DNA of 22,223 bases from a virus, in IMG/VR virus record IMGVR_UViG_3300043568_001868, positions 1 to 22,223 of that record; one strand, 5' to 3'. The notes beneath the pieces were generated by a model, which saw nothing but the letters and a program-made list of their open reading frames with translations, did not search any database and was not told where the DNA came from. Positions 13,817-21,882 of this stretch are shown here, piece by piece; position 1 is the stretch's first letter, and each line of letters opens with the position of its first letter. The position numbers and the translations under genes were made by a program.

Positions 13817-16800
13817 ATGGCAATTAATTTTAACGCTGATCCATATTACGATGATTTTGATGAAACTAAAAACTTTCATCGTATTCTATTTAAGCCAGGT
13901 GTTGCTGTTCAAGCACGTGAACTAACGCAACTACAAACTTCTATACAAAACCAAATTAAACGATTTGGCGATAATATTTTTAAAGAAGGCACTATTGTAC
14001 ATGGTGGTGAGCGAGCTTACGATAGAAACTATGAAGCAGTAAAACTTCAAGCAAGTTATAACGATGGTACAACAACATATAATGCTAATACAGAATTAAC
14101 TGGACTGATTGGTGATGAAATTTATGGTATAACTTCTGGCGTTAGAGCATTAGTTGTAAATGTGGTTGCATCAAATACTGCTGGTGATCCTCCTACAATA
14201 TATGTTAAGTATACAAATTCTGGTACGAATAAGCAGACTTATACTTTTGCTGATAATGAAGTAATTATAAACTCATTTAATAATAAGAAATTTAAAAGCT
14301 TAGTAACTAATGCTACAGCAATTGGTACAGCGTATACTATTACAGCTGGTGTTGCTTACGTTAAAGGTTATTTCGTATACTTCCCACGTCAAACATTGAT
14401 TTTAAATAAGTATGAAAACATTGATACTGCTATTGTAGTATTTAATGTTAATGAATCAATTAGGACTTTTACACAAGATTCAACTCTTCTTGATCCTGCT
14501 TCTGGTTCTTACAATTTCGCTGCACCTGGTGCGGATAGGTATTATATTGAACTGGTCATTGGTAAAAAAGAATGGCAACCAACTACTATTGTTGATGATG
14601 ATGTTATTGAGCTAGCAAGAATTCAAGGCTCTAATATCATTAAAGAAAATAAAAATACAGAATATGCAGTTCTTCAAGATACTTTGGCTAGAAGAACTTA
14701 TGACGAATCTGGCGACTATATTGTTCGTCCATTTGACATTAAAGTAATTGAGCATTTACAAAGTCCTACTCAACGATTAGGTTATTACACCGCAGCGCGT
14801 GGTGGTACTGGAGATAAGTTTGTTGCACAAATATCTGCTGGTAAAGCATACGTTCAAGGATATGAAGTAGAGGGTATTAAAACTTCTATTATATCTGCAG
14901 ATAAAGCGCGTGACACTGCCTCAGTAACAAACGGGTCAGTGTTTATTCCATTCGGCAATAGCATAGACATTACTAATGTGTTTGATACATTGACGAATCC
15001 AGAAGAATTTACTCGAGTAGATTTATATAATCGATATGTTGCAACACCTGGTTCTATCGCTGGTGCTGGCACTAAAATTGGTACAGCACGCGTATCGAAT
15101 ATACAATATATTTCCGGAACAGTTGGATCGACAGCATCAGTATATAGAGCATATCTGTTCGATATTCAAATGGAATCTGGTTTTTCATTTACTAAAGATG
15201 TAAAAGCTTTATATCAAGATTCAGGTGCAGTCAAACCTTTAGACTTTACTGCTGACGTAGCGCCTACTAACACATTACTTACTGGCACAATTTCTGTTAC
15301 ATCCGGAGCCAGTGCAGTAACCGGCGTTGGTACACGTTTTACTTCTCAACTTCGTGTTGGTGACTATATTAGTTTTGGTGCACAGATTGGTAGAGTAAAT
15401 AACATAACGAATGACTTAGCTTTGGTGTTAGGTGCTAATGCATTAACTACAGTAAGCGGTGCTAACTTCTTTATTCAATCAGTTTCAATCAATGATCAAG
15501 AACTAAATACTAGCATATTTCCTATGCCAGCACCAAATATTGAAACTATAGATCCTACTGGAGTAAATACGTCGTATTCAGTGCGTCGAGCAGAAGCTAA
15601 TGTTACTCTTTCTGGAGGACAGCTTCAAGTTATTGCGAATTCGAATGAAACGTTTTCAAGTTTTTCAACCGATAACTATCAAGCTTGGAATAATACTACT
15701 GGTGCTGCAATTGATATTGCTGGTAAATTAACGTTTACTGGTATCAATACTATCGTAACATTAGATTTAAGCTCTGTTGGATATACTAATGAAACAATTA
15801 CGTTTATTAATACTCGACAATTAACGTCTACTGCTGCTGATAAGAAAACAAAAACTTTAGTAGCAAATGCAACTCTTGATAAAGTAACAGCTGGTACCGC
15901 TGCAGTTTCTAATATCTCTCTAGAAAAGGCTGATGGATATAGATTAGTTTCTGTTGTGATGGACGCTGGATCGTTTGCTACTCCAGCTGGCACTTATACT
16001 GTTGATATTACTTCACGTTATACTTTTGATAATGGTCAAAGACTTAGCCATTACGCTCCAGCATCAATTTCTTTAAAATCAGGAGCAGCACTTCCTACTG
16101 CACCAATTCGAATTACTTTCGATTATTTTAATCATTCATTTGATGGTACGTTCTTTACCGTTGACTCATATACAGCTTTAGACTATAAAGATATACCAAC
16201 AGTTACTATCTCTGGTCAAACATTTGTGCTGAGAGATTGTGTAGACTTTAGACCACGCATGAATGATGCTGGTACAGGATTTTCCGGCACTGGCGGAAGA
16301 ATATCTTACTTCCCAGATTTCGAAAATGACTTGATTACTTCATACGAATATTATTTGCCACGTATCGATAAACTCGTATTAAGTCGTGATGGCGAATTAA
16401 CCTTTATAAAAGGACAAAGCTCGTTAAAGCCAAAAGAACCAGAAGCTCCAACTGGTACTATGACTTTATATATTTTTAAACAAAAGCCATATGTTTTTGA
16501 TTTAAAGGACGATATTGAAATTGTAATTGTCGATAACCGCAGATATACTATGCGCGGTATTTCGAAACTAGAAGAAAGAATTAAGAATGTTGAATACTAT
16601 ACATCCTTAAATCTATTAGAGCAAAATGCTCAAAATTATCAAATAAAAGATCAGGACGGATTAGACAGATTTAAAAATGGATTTGTAGTTGATTCATTTT
16701 CTGGCCATGGTATTGGCGACGTATTCAATAATGATTACTCTGTATCAATAGACTTTGATAAAGAAGAATTGCGGCCGATGGCAAAAACTAATATGATGAG

Positions 16801-18913
16801 ACTAGAAGAAGTAAATACTTCTAAAGTTTCTCGTTTAGCTAATGGCTACGTAAAAGTTGGCGATATGATTACTTTACCATATAAGCTTCAAAGATTTATA
16901 TCAAATAATTATAACTCAACTACCACTGAACTAAACCCATTTAAAATGATAAGTTTTGCTGGTAAAGCTTATGGTATACAGCAAGATTACTGGTTTGAAG
17001 AAAATATTCTACCAGACCTCTATACAAATGAAAATGGAAATTACGACTCATTAAAATCTACAGCTGTTGCAAAAGGTACTTATGGTACAGTTTGGGGTGG
17101 TTGGGAAGAACTGTATCTTGGCAAAGCAGCTGATGGTTTAACTGAAAGCACTCTTAAATATAGAGCTGGCAAAAAGTACGAAGTTAAAGAGTATACAACA
17201 AATAAAACAAAAACTTACGTTAAGTCTTCTGCCGTTATTCCAAAAATGCGTGATATTAATATTGATTTTCACGTTGTTGGATTAAAGCCAAACACTAGAA
17301 TATTTGTCTTCTTTGATAATATTAATGTCACCAATGATACTCATACTTTAGCACAAGGCGCTACTCAATATAATAACGATTTTTCTAGATTTTCTGATAT
17401 TATGTTTGCTGGTCAAAACATATTTAGTAAAGACGTTTTAGCAACAGATGAGAGCGGTGAAGTACACTTACGATTCCAATATAAGTCAAGTAAATATGAT
17501 TTAAATACTGGCACATATACAATTAGAGTATCTGATTCAGCTGACAATAATCCAGATCTTGAATCGACCGGCGCTAGTATGACATTTACATCTTCTGGCG
17601 AATTACGTAATATCGTAACTGAACATGTTGCAACACGTAATGCCAGATTGATTGACAGTGTCGTGAAAGAAGAAGATAGAATTACAAACAAAGTAATTCA
17701 AAAAGAAATTACAGTAATACCAGTAGCAGTTACTGGTGGAAATAGATCTGGCGCTGTGGTAGATGCAGTTACTGTTGTTGATGAAGGGACTTTTATATGT
17801 ACTGGCGGTAAAGTATTAGGACCAGGCGGATTCTGCATATGTCCTAATGGAACTTTACTAGATTCTTCTTCTGGCCTTTGTGAAGATGCAAGAACAGTTG
17901 ATCCAGCATGGATTCCTTCTGGAACCTTTATACGTTCATTCTGTTCAGGATTTGATCTATATTATGTTCGAGCTAATGGCATTGGTGGAGAACTTTCGCC
18001 AGCATTAATACGAGAAAATGATGTTGCAGATTGTGGATACGTCGCAGAAGCTATTTCGTTTCCTGCAGCTGGAACAGATCTTGGATTTACTTTCTGTAGA
18101 GACTTTCACTCATATCATGCATATACTGATGGAAAGGGTGGTACCTATACTGCGATATACGAGCAGCAATCAGTAGCCGATTGTAATTTTGAAGTACCAA
18201 TTAATCCAGATGGATGTCCTAATGATGGCACATTCATTGAATCATTCTGCATTGATAACGATGAAGTATTTTATTATGCTGATGGCTCTTGCGGAGTAAC
18301 GTTTACAACATCAGTTGGTGCGTGCGCTCCTGAAGTACCTTATGATAATATTATTACTATTAGAGTAGGTGGAACAGAAAACGATATTAATAATAATGCT
18401 GTTATTGATGTCGGTGAAGTAGATACAGTCTCTATCAATGATATAGTAGATCCTGTTGGTGTAATTGATGCAATTGCAGGATGGGTATTCGGTATTACAT
18501 TAAGCGAAGCTCAAAAAGCATGGGTTGCTGCTGAAGCTGCAGCACAAAATATTACTGCAGCAACCTTTTCTGCTGCAACTGTATCAAGTGAGAATATTCT
18601 TGCCGATGGACGTATTGATGTTATTGACCTTTCTGGCAATCTTATTATTCCAGCTAGTTATAACGCTGAAGCAGAAAGGGTTGCTAATTTTATAGCACAG
18701 ATGATTACTGAAGGCGCTGCAAGTAATGTTAGCGATTCGAGTGCTGTGACAGCAATTAATAATAGTGGTGGTGTTGGCTCCGCAGCTGCGCAAACATATA
18801 TAACAGCACTTGCAATACAAGCAACTACGGCAATTGCAAATTCTGGAACTACATCAGCTGATATATGGTGGAAAGAAGTTGCCGATGTTTCTAAATCAAA
18901 TGGCGCGGTATAA
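13817..18913 (+). CDS. Giant DUF4815-type baseplate/virion structural protein with C-terminal Cys-repeat and EF-hand-like extension
   Basis: A 1698-residue protein, the largest in the window. The N-terminus (DDFDETKNFHRILFKPGVAV then QARELTQLQTSIQNQIKRFG) is the DUF4815 signature seen in T4-like marine phages, where such proteins are virion components thought to lie at the baseplate rim. Several beta-rich domains follow; a helical segment is near residue 920 (SKLEERIKNVEYYTSLNLLE). After residue 1320 the composition changes: a CTGG...CICPNG knot (C1328, C1340, C1342, C1355), three Cys-pair repeats (1369-1503), then two Ca-binding-like loops (1523-1534 and 1593-1604) in an Ala-rich tail. No signal peptide. 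Late promoter 40 bases upstream. The DUF call is firm; peripheral baseplate placement and host-surface contact by the tail are inferences. Confidence 0.75.
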   Translation: MAINFNADPYYDDFDETKNFHRILFKPGVAVQARELTQLQTSIQNQIKRFGDNIFKEGTIVHGGERAYDRNYEAVKLQASYNDGTTTYNANTELTGLIGDEIYGITSGVRALVVNVVASNTAGDPPTIYVKYTNSGTNKQTYTFADNEVIINSFNNKKFKSLVTNATAIGTAYTITAGVAYVKGYFVYFPRQTLILNKYENIDTAIVVFNVNESIRTFTQDSTLLDPASGSYNFAAPGADRYYIELVIGKKEWQPTTIVDDDVIELARIQGSNIIKENKNTEYAVLQDTLARRTYDESGDYIVRPFDIKVIEHLQSPTQRLGYYTAARGGTGDKFVAQISAGKAYVQGYEVEGIKTSIISADKARDTASVTNGSVFIPFGNSIDITNVFDTLTNPEEFTRVDLYNRYVATPGSIAGAGTKIGTARVSNIQYISGTVGSTASVYRAYLFDIQMESGFSFTKDVKALYQDSGAVKPLDFTADVAPTNTLLTGTISVTSGASAVTGVGTRFTSQLRVGDYISFGAQIGRVNNITNDLALVLGANALTTVSGANFFIQSVSINDQELNTSIFPMPAPNIETIDPTGVNTSYSVRRAEANVTLSGGQLQVIANSNETFSSFSTDNYQAWNNTTGAAIDIAGKLTFTGINTIVTLDLSSVGYTNETITFINTRQLTSTAADKKTKTLVANATLDKVTAGTAAVSNISLEKADGYRLVSVVMDAGSFATPAGTYTVDITSRYTFDNGQRLSHYAPASISLKSGAALPTAPIRITFDYFNHSFDGTFFTVDSYTALDYKDIPTVTISGQTFVLRDCVDFRPRMNDAGTGFSGTGGRISYFPDFENDLITSYEYYLPRIDKLVLSRDGELTFIKGQSSLKPKEPEAPTGTMTLYIFKQKPYVFDLKDDIEIVIVDNRRYTMRGISKLEERIKNVEYYTSLNLLEQNAQNYQIKDQDGLDRFKNGFVVDSFSGHGIGDVFNNDYSVSIDFDKEELRPMAKTNMMRLEEVNTSKVSRLANGYVKVGDMITLPYKLQRFISNNYNSTTTELNPFKMISFAGKAYGIQQDYWFEENILPDLYTNENGNYDSLKSTAVAKGTYGTVWGGWEELYLGKAADGLTESTLKYRAGKKYEVKEYTTNKTKTYVKSSAVIPKMRDINIDFHVVGLKPNTRIFVFFDNINVTNDTHTLAQGATQYNNDFSRFSDIMFAGQNIFSKDVLATDESGEVHLRFQYKSSKYDLNTGTYTIRVSDSADNNPDLESTGASMTFTSSGELRNIVTEHVATRNARLIDSVVKEEDRITNKVIQKEITVIPVAVTGGNRSGAVVDAVTVVDEGTFICTGGKVLGPGGFCICPNGTLLDSSSGLCEDARTVDPAWIPSGTFIRSFCSGFDLYYVRANGIGGELSPALIRENDVADCGYVAEAISFPAAGTDLGFTFCRDFHSYHAYTDGKGGTYTAIYEQQSVADCNFEVPINPDGCPNDGTFIESFCIDNDEVFYYADGSCGVTFTTSVGACAPEVPYDNIITIRVGGTENDINNNAVIDVGEVDTVSINDIVDPVGVIDAIAGWVFGITLSEAQKAWVAAEAAAQNITAATFSAATVSSENILADGRIDVIDLSGNLIIPASYNAEAERVANFIAQMITEGAASNVSDSSAVTAINNSGGVGSAAAQTYITALAIQATTAIANSGTTSADIWWKEVADVSKSNGAV
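17921..18325 (+). repeat. Three tandem ~51-residue Cys-pair repeats in the DUF4815 protein
   Basis: Unit 1 (GTFIRSFC ... VADCGY, C1376/C1406), unit 2 (GFTFC ... VADCNF, C1427/C1456) and unit 3 (GTFIESFC ... GAC, C1478/C1503) share aromatic YY or YH followed by A-[DN]-G-x-[GC]-G. First cysteines are exactly 51 residues apart. Repetition is at protein level only. Confidence 0.7.
18383..18418 (+). other. EF-hand/dockerin-like calcium loop 1 in the DUF4815 protein
   Basis: Residues 1523-1534 read DINNNAVIDVGE: D1, N3, N5, I8, D9, E12, which satisfies the 12-residue EF-hand loop rule. Calcium binding is inferred from the pattern. Confidence 0.55.
18593..18628 (+). other. EF-hand/dockerin-like calcium loop 2 in the DUF4815 protein
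   Basis: Residues 1593-1604 read NILADGRIDVID: N1, D5, G6, I8, D9, D12, with position 3 (Leu) not a ligand. It lies 58 residues after loop 1, a wider gap than in standard dockerins. Confidence 0.45.
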
Positions 18914-18929: not shown

Positions 18930-20714
18930 ATGGCTTATAAGATTATTACACCTTTAGCACAATCATTCTTTGTTGAAGAAGCTTGTGTCATTACATCGAT
19001 TGATTTATTCTTTGCTACAAAGGATCAACGCAATCCAGTCAATATTCATCTGCGCGAAAATAAGAATGGCGTACCTGGAAATTATATGTTACCTTTTTCT
19101 GAGGTACTATTAAAATCTTCTCAGGTATATACTTCAACAAATGGAAAGATTCCTACGTACATAGAATTTGATTCTCCAATATATGTTAAACCAGGAGAAT
19201 ATTCTGTATGTATTGGTTCTGGTTCAGATGAGTACTCTATACACATTTCAGAAATCAATCAAATTGATGTGAACACTGGAAGAAAAATTCTAGTGCAACC
19301 ATCATTAGGATCGCTGTATAAGTCTTCTAATAACTTGACCTGGACGCCAGTACAAGAAGCTGATTTAAAATTTGCAATATATCGCGCAGTATTTGATACT
19401 TCTGTTGTAGGCAATATAGACTTTACTATTAATAAAACTGGTCTAACTACTGAGCAATTAACAAAAGATCCGCTTGAAGTTTTTAATGGATCTAACTTAA
19501 TGCGAGTTCATCACTTTAATCATGGCATGACAAATGGGTCATATGTAAAACTCTTGGGTATTCAAGAGGCATACAATGCAATGACTCAAACTGCTAAGAC
19601 TTTATATGGCGTATCTTTTAACAGTATCATATATAATAATTTAGAAATAAGTAATGTTACACCAAATAGCTACACAGTTGAGTTATCTGGCAATGCAAAT
19701 GCTGATGCTAGATTTGGTGGTTCTTCAGTTATAGCAGAAAGAAATATTATAGTTGATGCGTTGTATCCAGTCATTGGCAAAATTGAAGAGTCTAGTACTC
19801 ATATTACTCCAAAGATAAAATCAACATCTACTGATTATGTTCTTGATTCCAATTATCAAATATTAGAAAAATCTACAAATGAATTAAGTTCTCGTAGAAT
19901 TGTTGCTTCTCCAGCAAACCAAGAGTTGCTATTGGCTGGTGCTGATACTTTAGAATATAGATTAGAATTAACTACTACTAACGAACTTGTTGCGCCAATG
20001 GTTGACGCTCAACAACTTGGACTATTAGCAATTCAAAACTTAGTTGATAATCCAATATATTCAACTTCTAATCCAATATCAGAAGATATCGTAACACTCT
20101 TTAGCGCTGTAGCTTCAGTCGTTGCAACTCAAGTGAGTGGATCAGTTGGTGTAATTACAATACCTACGGCTCACATATCTGATGTTGCATCACTTACTGC
20201 TGGAAATATTATTAATATAACCAGTTCATCAAATACTGGCCAGGCAAGAGTAGTATCAATAGCGCAAGATAATACTTCAATTACTGTTGATTTATTCTCT
20301 GGGAACTTTACAACTGGAACAGGTACTACAACGATTACTTATGGTAAGAATTTTATTACTGAAGAAGCTGCTACTGCTGGTTCGGTATATTCAAAATATA
20401 TTACTCGTAAAATTGACTTTAAGAATCCGTGTACTTCTATTAATGTTAGATTAGATGTAAACAAGCAAGCTGGAACTGATATTACTTTTTATTATAAAAC
20501 ATTGCTAACTGGTGAATCACTTGATATTACTTCAAAAGAATATACAAAATTAGACTATATTGTTCCAATCACTCTAGCAAATGAGTTCCAAGAAATAGAA
20601 ATTCAAAAAGATGACTTATCGCCATTTGTAAGTATCGTATTTAAAATTGTATTTACTTCAACAAACGGAAAAGCACCTAAGTGTAGAAACTTGCGACTAA
20701 TCGCATTGGCATAA
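18930..20714 (+). CDS. Virion structural protein, partner of the DUF4815 protein
   Basis: A 594-residue protein. The N-terminal 170 residues hold a recognisable block: ITPLAQSFFVEEACVITSID, LFFATKDQRNPVNIHLREN, then YIEFDSPIYVKPGEYSVCIG, SGSDEYSIHISEI and TWTPVQEADLKFAIYRAVFD. From memory, in many marine T4-like phages the same block (LAQ.FFV....G.F..S.DLFF..KD) is found in one chain with DUF4815 or gp10-like proteins. It probably forms a jelly-roll-like attachment domain on the baseplate rim. The remaining 400 residues are Thr/Ser-rich beta structure with a fibre-like character and a final RLIALA. It starts 16 bases after the DUF4815 stop. Function is inferred from block and position; no enzyme motifs are seen. 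Confidence 0.6.
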   Translation: MAYKIITPLAQSFFVEEACVITSIDLFFATKDQRNPVNIHLRENKNGVPGNYMLPFSEVLLKSSQVYTSTNGKIPTYIEFDSPIYVKPGEYSVCIGSGSDEYSIHISEINQIDVNTGRKILVQPSLGSLYKSSNNLTWTPVQEADLKFAIYRAVFDTSVVGNIDFTINKTGLTTEQLTKDPLEVFNGSNLMRVHHFNHGMTNGSYVKLLGIQEAYNAMTQTAKTLYGVSFNSIIYNNLEISNVTPNSYTVELSGNANADARFGGSSVIAERNIIVDALYPVIGKIEESSTHITPKIKSTSTDYVLDSNYQILEKSTNELSSRRIVASPANQELLLAGADTLEYRLELTTTNELVAPMVDAQQLGLLAIQNLVDNPIYSTSNPISEDIVTLFSAVASVVATQVSGSVGVITIPTAHISDVASLTAGNIINITSSSNTGQARVVSIAQDNTSITVDLFSGNFTTGTGTTTITYGKNFITEEAATAGSVYSKYITRKIDFKNPCTSINVRLDVNKQAGTDITFYYKTLLTGESLDITSKEYTKLDYIVPITLANEFQEIEIQKDDLSPFVSIVFKIVFTSTNGKAPKCRNLRLIALA

Positions 20715-20949: not shown

Positions 20950-21882
20950 ATGTCTGTTGCATTAACACTTAGAAGTATAAAGGGCTCTCGGTTAACTAAT
21001 ACCGAAATGGATAATAATTTCATTAATATTAGTGACGAGTTAGACTTAAAGGCTACAACAGCAAATCCTGAATTTACTGGACTTGTACTTGTGACTGGCG
21101 ACTTACAAGTTACTGGTACTACTACATTTGTTAATACTCAGAATCTATCAATAGCTGATACTACACTTTATCTGAATAGACGTATTGAAGGTACTATAAC
21201 AAATGCTGTTGGTGATGGAACCAATGTAGTATATACGGTAGATAATAATTATACTGTTGGAGATTTTCTTACAGTAACTGACGTTACTCCTTCATCATTT
21301 AATGTTGCTGGTGTGGTAATTACTGGTGCTACTTCAAGCACTGTTACGATTGCATCTATTAATACTGATACTTACGGAAGTGGTGGAGAAACATATAGTA
21401 AAACTACAGCAAATCCAGATCTTGGACTTGTTGGTGGTTATAACTCCACCGGCTTACTAAGTGGATATGCTCACTCTGGAATATTTAGAGATGCTAGCGA
21501 TTCTGGCGTATGGAAATTTTATGATGGGTATATACCAGAACCTGTAGGCACGATCAATACTTCTGATGCTAGTTTTTCATTGGCTCCTATTGCTGCTTTA
21601 AGTGTAACGGCTAATGATTTTAATTCTACGTCAGATATAAAATTAAAGAAAAATATTTCTGTTATAGAAAATGCATTAGATATAGTAAATCAATTAGAAG
21701 GTGTAAATTTTGAGTGGAAGGATTCTGGCAAAAAATCGATTGGCGTAATTGCACAACAGGTTGAACAGGTAGTTCCAAATATAGTAATTACTGGTTCTGA
21801 TGGAATAAAAAGAGTTTCGTACGATTCACTTATTCCCATATTAATAGAGGCAATTAAAGAACTATCTGCTAAAATCAAATAA
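20950..21882 (+). CDS. Tail fibre protein with C-terminal S74 intramolecular chaperone
   Basis: A 310-residue fibre. The N-terminus (LTLRSIKGSRLTNTEMDNNF then INISDELDLKA) is a common baseplate- or fibre-attachment segment, followed by a TGDLQVTGTTTF...NLSIADTTLYLN beta region typical of trimeric fibres and a variable middle. The last 83 residues are an S74 peptidase/chaperone domain: SDIKLKKNI, VNQLEGVNFEW, KKSIGVIAQQVEQVVPNIV, VSYDSLIPILIEAIKEL. In this family the domain helps trimerise the fibre and then cuts itself off just before the Ser of the SD..LK motif, here Ser228 with Lys233 as likely dyad partner. The mature fibre would have about 227 residues. AGGA eight bases before ATG is the ribosome binding site. 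Confidence 0.8.
   Translation: MSVALTLRSIKGSRLTNTEMDNNFINISDELDLKATTANPEFTGLVLVTGDLQVTGTTTFVNTQNLSIADTTLYLNRRIEGTITNAVGDGTNVVYTVDNNYTVGDFLTVTDVTPSSFNVAGVVITGATSSTVTIASINTDTYGSGGETYSKTTANPDLGLVGGYNSTGLLSGYAHSGIFRDASDSGVWKFYDGYIPEPVGTINTSDASFSLAPIAALSVTANDFNSTSDIKLKKNISVIENALDIVNQLEGVNFEWKDSGKKSIGVIAQQVEQVVPNIVITGSDGIKRVSYDSLIPILIEAIKELSAKIK

Follow-up and report, generated by a model that had tools for sequence, protein, structure and literature searches.

The DUF4815 (VrlC-type) baseplate protein encoded in the window, i.e., the whole analysed stretch of 22,223 nucleotides of the IMG/VR virus record IMGVR_UViG_3300043568_001868, carries three cysteine-paired repeats, here called beads, ahead of its C-terminal domain. 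This array is probably a spacer of exposed, disulfide-locked beads, which would keep the C-terminal domain off the baseplate edge and may adhere as well, a reading to which a probability of about 0.6 is given. We infer the disulfides themselves, the surface exposure of the beads, and their spacer role. The coordinates of the features are collected in Table 1.

Table 1. Features of the baseplate protein gene and its downstream neighbour, with positions in the window.
Feature	Position	Strand	Extent and evidence
DUF4815 (VrlC-type) baseplate protein gene, carries the bead array	13817..18913	+	1698 aa; PF16075, phrog_358, and PDB 9euf matches
Four-Cys knot CTGGKVLGPGGFCICPNGTLLDSSSGLC	17798..17881	+	residues 1328-1355; Cys count
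R1, pair C1376-C1406	17912..18052	+	residues 1366-1412; held-out profile 36.7 bits; AF2 pLDDT 80 alone
R2, pair C1427-C1456	18059..18202	+	residues 1415-1462; held-out profile 33.3 bits; in-register alignment
R3, two Cys pairs	18215..18334	+	residues 1467-1506; held-out profile 26.1 bits; second-pair covariation
C-terminal domain behind the array	18338..18910	+	helical by eye; kept across the split clade, in repeat-bearing and repeat-free members
Separate gene, C-terminal third of single-chain DUF4815/VrlC	18930..20714	+	blastp; phrog_358 positions 1423-1603

The carrier protein matches PF16075 (DUF4815) at 188.4 bits (E 2.4e-55), which exceeds the gathering cut-off of 30 bits, and phrog_358 covers its residues 2-1174 (E 2e-303). 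The DUF4815 chain of PDB 9euf is also related to it (E 4.5e-22), and none of the papers searched describes that structure. A DUF4815 protein on the baseplate, as proposed in the first-pass annotation, is borne out by these three matches. In pelagimyophages and cyanomyophages, VrlC stands in for T4 gp7 and is regarded as a component of a two-layered baseplate (PMC7029224). The window protein resembles other DUF4815/VrlC proteins (PF16075, phrog_358) across the length of the core (residues 1-1174) and in its neighbours, since the operon encodes homologues of gp53, gp5, gp25, and gp6, together with a T4-type tail tube protein and an S74-chaperone fibre. In contrast to those proteins, its chain is split, the C-terminal third forming a gene of its own, and a cysteine-rich array and a new C-terminal domain have been added. 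A fibre-like protein is encoded at 20950-21882, and its C-terminal end is a Peptidase_S74 intramolecular chaperone (PF13884).

Cysteine is confined almost wholly to the added segment, with one residue (C808) in positions 1-1327 and 12 in positions 1328-1503. The earlier observation of a Cys-rich stretch after residue 1320 therefore stands, the stretch beginning at residues 1320-1328. The knot contributes C1328, C1340, C1342, and C1355. The first cysteines of the repeats (C1376, C1427, and C1478) follow one another with a period of exactly 51, and the pairs are spaced by 30, 29, and 25 residues in R1, R2, and R3, respectively, as had been described for three 51-residue repeats with cysteines 25-30 apart. 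A single pair per repeat, as first read, holds for R1 and R2 and fails for R3, whose four cysteines make two pairs: the canonical C1478-C1503, and C1467-C1492, which runs from the N-terminal part to the turn. The YYxxADGxGG core of the same annotation is a composite found in no single repeat, the actual cores being YYVRANGIGG, YHAYTDGKGG, and FYYADGSCG in R1 to R3, respectively.

The reality of the repeats was assessed with a held-out profile built from 124 copies, all from non-DUF4815 proteins. The whole protein scores 95.4 bits with it (E 7.5e-29 at Z=1000), and each repeat scores as given in Table 1, while the top score among 2000 shuffled segments was 10.6 bits. The window repeats also align in register with consecutive copies of other arrays. 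They exceed chance, and the feature is real. The knot pattern CxCPx[G/D] has no other occurrence among the collected open frames longer than 150 aa and is found in the window only; in the tandem model described below the knot has low confidence (pLDDT 52-60). An EGF-like identity for the knot was rejected, as it has four cysteines where EGF spacing requires six and shows no Pfam match.

The family was collected by a degenerate DNA scan (YxDGxGGTY) of viral contigs, a profile search, and a further scan aimed at copies with a Cys in the turn. It comprises 285 matches in 138 open frames, lipoproteins included, with 1-9 copies per frame and with some contigs present twice; a search for the unit in other phage or secreted host proteins, as had been suggested, thus found it. 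The module is about 45 residues long, with the consensus yPaaGTlLstyCsGtdlygtYADGsGGTYteliEaNStdCGYvpP, so the 51-residue unit named earlier applies to the window protein and not to the family as a whole. Close whole-protein relatives (L003-L008 and L020) have five copies at the position where the window has three.

The pairing of the cysteines was judged from 166 distinct copies, which are related by descent and not phylogenetically independent. Both canonical cysteines are present in 155 of them, neither in 6, and a single one in 5, and an N-terminal Cys just before GT accompanies the turn Cys (DGxCG) in 38 of 49 copies but occurs in only 2 of 117 without it (Fisher p 4e-25), several of the exceptions being copies incomplete at the edge of the segment analysed. 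As each of the two pairs is gained or lost as a unit, disulfides are favoured over a metal site. The canonical pair and the turn/N-terminal pair would accordingly form two separate disulfides, as far as covariation can tell. Of the two options left open by the first-pass annotation, disulfides are supported and metal is disfavoured. Metal ligation by the Cys pairs in the manner of a zinc ribbon is highly improbable. The four cysteines of R3 and the four of the knot could in principle hold Zn; however, R1 and R2 have only two cysteines each, 29-30 apart, as do canonical copies of the family at about 28-30 residues, with neither a CxxC knuckle nor a conserved His. Moreover, variation in the second pair is independent of that in the first, exported lipoproteins are among the carriers, and the few zinc-family matches lie far under cut-off. 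A true zinc ribbon needs two CxxC-type knuckles or His ligands, and neither is present in the Cys map or in the family consensus. Disulfides are known from another contractile-tailed virion, that of Agrobacterium phage Milano, where a disulfide network is said to block tail contraction (PMC10811340). In contrast, the cysteines here lie in autonomous repeats of a baseplate protein.

The suggested structure prediction was carried out, and it yields three-stranded beads. AF2 modelling of R1 alone with a 63-row alignment (pLDDT as in Table 1) gives three strands, with a short helix next to the second Cys. In a 192-residue tandem, three like strands are predicted per repeat, with local pLDDT mostly 75-86 and a pTM of 0.34. 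The beads are thus predicted to be well formed and their bead-to-bead orientation to be unfixed. No significant fold match was obtained for either model, as Foldseek returns nothing below E 0.1 in the PDB and a best value of 0.39 in BFVD. Each bead would consist of a beta-meander of three strands whose turn reads [A/T][D/N]GxGG, a closing disulfide would join the end of strand 1 to the C-terminal CGY motif, and R3 would have an extra disulfide from its N-terminal strand to the turn. Such disulfides would lock the beads once the virion reaches an oxidising medium.

The position of the array is best understood from the history of the gene. In the cultured phages Mosig and Melnitz, the DUF4815 chain runs straight on into its C-terminal third. 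The product of the separate gene of the window matches residues 1530-2044 of Mosig VrlC (blastp E 2.8e-50) and its Melnitz counterpart (E 3.5e-38), and the PLAQTF...SLDLFF region, which lies within the same chain in the single-chain form, is found in the next gene in the window. The counterpart is likewise a separate gene in L011, L003, and L156. The C-terminal domain behind the array is conserved in L003, L006, L156, L235, L265, and L011. A Pfam search with it gave nothing significant; DUF4214 (PF13946) appeared as a weak match (E 0.27) in the tail of L010 alone, and the window record and its relatives have none at E<=1. L011 has the split gene and the C-terminal domain, and in the slot of the array it has a Pro-rich linker, YSPPPDPPDPEPTP, and no beads. 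In the tree of the DUF4815 core, all bead carriers group in a single clade (100/98), and L011 and L010 branch just outside it; L010 ends at a contig edge, which leaves L011 as the only complete member of the split clade observed to lack repeats. This phylogeny indicates a single gain of the bead array, after the DUF4815/VrlC gene of the clade had been split. In the simplest history, the gene would have split, its first half would have acquired a linker and a new C-terminal domain, beads would later have entered the linker in a single insertion, and divergence to three or five copies would have followed. The window in this way documents a conserved baseplate protein that was split and then rebuilt with a beaded extension.

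Because the array occupies the slot of the Pro-rich linker of L011, it is best read as a beaded spacer. This anatomy supports a spacer role no less than it supports receptor binding or adhesion. Against a spacer, three beads make a short one. Against a pure spacer, the surface residues of YADGxGG and CGY are more conserved than such a role would require and could instead mark a binding site. It is very unlikely that the array is a fast-turnover, functionally neutral repeat insertion tolerated in the linker. The slot is indeed a linker, copy number differs between clades (three versus five), and the module recurs across unrelated proteins; however, the array is kept throughout a clade whose cores are as low as about 55% identical (window versus L156) or lower, and the canonical cysteines are retained in every aligned copy.

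The bead looks like a recurrent small domain that is absent from the standard family libraries and that nobody has catalogued so far. Curated Pfam and NCBIfam cut-offs were reached by none of 63 bead copies, nor by the window segment. PHROGs has no credible match over the module, only scattered weak ones, of which the best (phrog_33459, E 5.5e-5 over 46 residues) came from one array and was not reproduced with the window. A PDB profile search with the bead gave nothing credible. The earlier statement that the repeat belongs to no named family agrees with these profile searches, and the confident match to a known domain that would have spoken against it was sought with the bead profiles and not found. 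Single-sequence searches with the window segment gave nothing in Pfam, NCBIfam, PHROGs, the PDB, or the cultured phages, exact-peptide scans of viral contigs with its peptides gave nothing either, and the core motif has no occurrence in the paper texts searched. DUF5977 (PF19404), a small Cys-containing domain of Bacteroidota that we take to be a look-alike, resembles the bead in size, in its two cysteines, and, by eye, in a Y-x-V-x-x-G-x-Y-type hairpin. On the other hand, DUF5977 has a C-terminal A-D-Q-x-A helix and a GQxxAN motif, neither of which the bead has, and hhalign gives the pair a probability of 0.8% with a small DUF5977 profile of 7 sequences.

In 50,697 cultured phage records, tblastn found no credible bead, with a best E of 2. 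In a control with equal query, database size, and low-complexity filter, 117 collected loci were detectable, the window among them at 4e-10, so the absence from cultured phages is not a filter artefact, although weak copies could escape. A match in Vibrio phage Vc1 (E 6) is to an unrelated beta-helix-like protein without the motif, and Citrobacter and Desulfovibrio phage matches (E 2-6) were excluded as members by the profile. With 117 loci findable and nothing credible in the cultured records, the bead appears as a common part of environmental viruses that is invisible to annotation. It would be a recurrent building block of the virion surface overlooked by family libraries and cultured-phage records alike, and a curated profile would permit its mapping.

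The carriers bear on whether the beads bind a ligand. They include members of the virion/tail families phrog_2163 and phrog_14478 and one member of phrog_38559, a family of unknown function. In surface lipoproteins of L202, L203, and L204 (Flavobacteriaceae), and also of L209-L211, the lipobox is separated from a GH43 catalytic domain by a single bead, and M12B-like metalloprotease lipoproteins also carry beads. In genome collections, the bead occurs mainly in Flavobacteriaceae (5 of 397 genomes of the family in one scan), with one weak match elsewhere in the phylum. Because beads occur on GH43 and protease lipoproteins, adhesion stays alive as an explanation, and this context hints at the ligand. 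If the beads were primarily carbohydrate- or receptor-binding, every repeat would bind a surface polymer and copy number would tune avidity; as the primary role, this is rather doubtful. The site between lipobox and GH43 domain is a common one for binding modules, many copies in virion proteins are located towards the protein ends, conservation is strong in the core YADGxGGTY, and the region downstream of VrlC is termed the host recognition cluster in pelagimyophages (PMC7029224). Moreover, the lectins PhoSL and cyanovirin-N are among the weak fold matches (Z 2.0-2.8). However, these fold matches are at noise level (Foldseek E > 1), and fully conserved aromatic residues are few. PhoSL, the 40-aa lectin of Pholiota squarrosa, is likewise a tiny beta fold and gives weak VIA-align matches to the bead (Z 2.6-2.8 over 36-38 residues, also noise level), whereas its sequence is unrelated and its cysteines are placed differently. 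It was rejected by sequence, since it scores 1.1 bits, a value equalled by 184 shuffled sequences, and the profile gives no PhoSL match.

Glycan adhesion by the beads is plausible though speculative, and within the spacer reading the beads may additionally stick to host-surface polymers. Only tentatively can the bead be proposed as an undescribed, widely shared, disulfide-locked, lectin-like adhesion module of the virion proteins of uncultured-bacteria viruses and of the polysaccharide-degrading surface lipoproteins of Flavobacteriaceae. If so, reach and avidity at the host surface would depend on how long the array is.

Further bead-containing architectures were observed among the collected loci. 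M12B-like metalloproteases with N-terminal beads are encoded at L131:980-2284, at L149:25-1644, and in similar viral contigs, and the L131 protein has a lipoprotein-type signal by eye. At L147:2048-6253 and L228:3-3020, beads and Hint-type self-processing domains occur in one protein, and the L147 protein has a sedolisin-like N-terminal region by eye. Looser repeats with a DGxCG turn, which have more cysteines or no canonical ones, are present in L136, L143, L263, L268, and L277 and hint that hairpin repeats of this kind form a wider superfamily.
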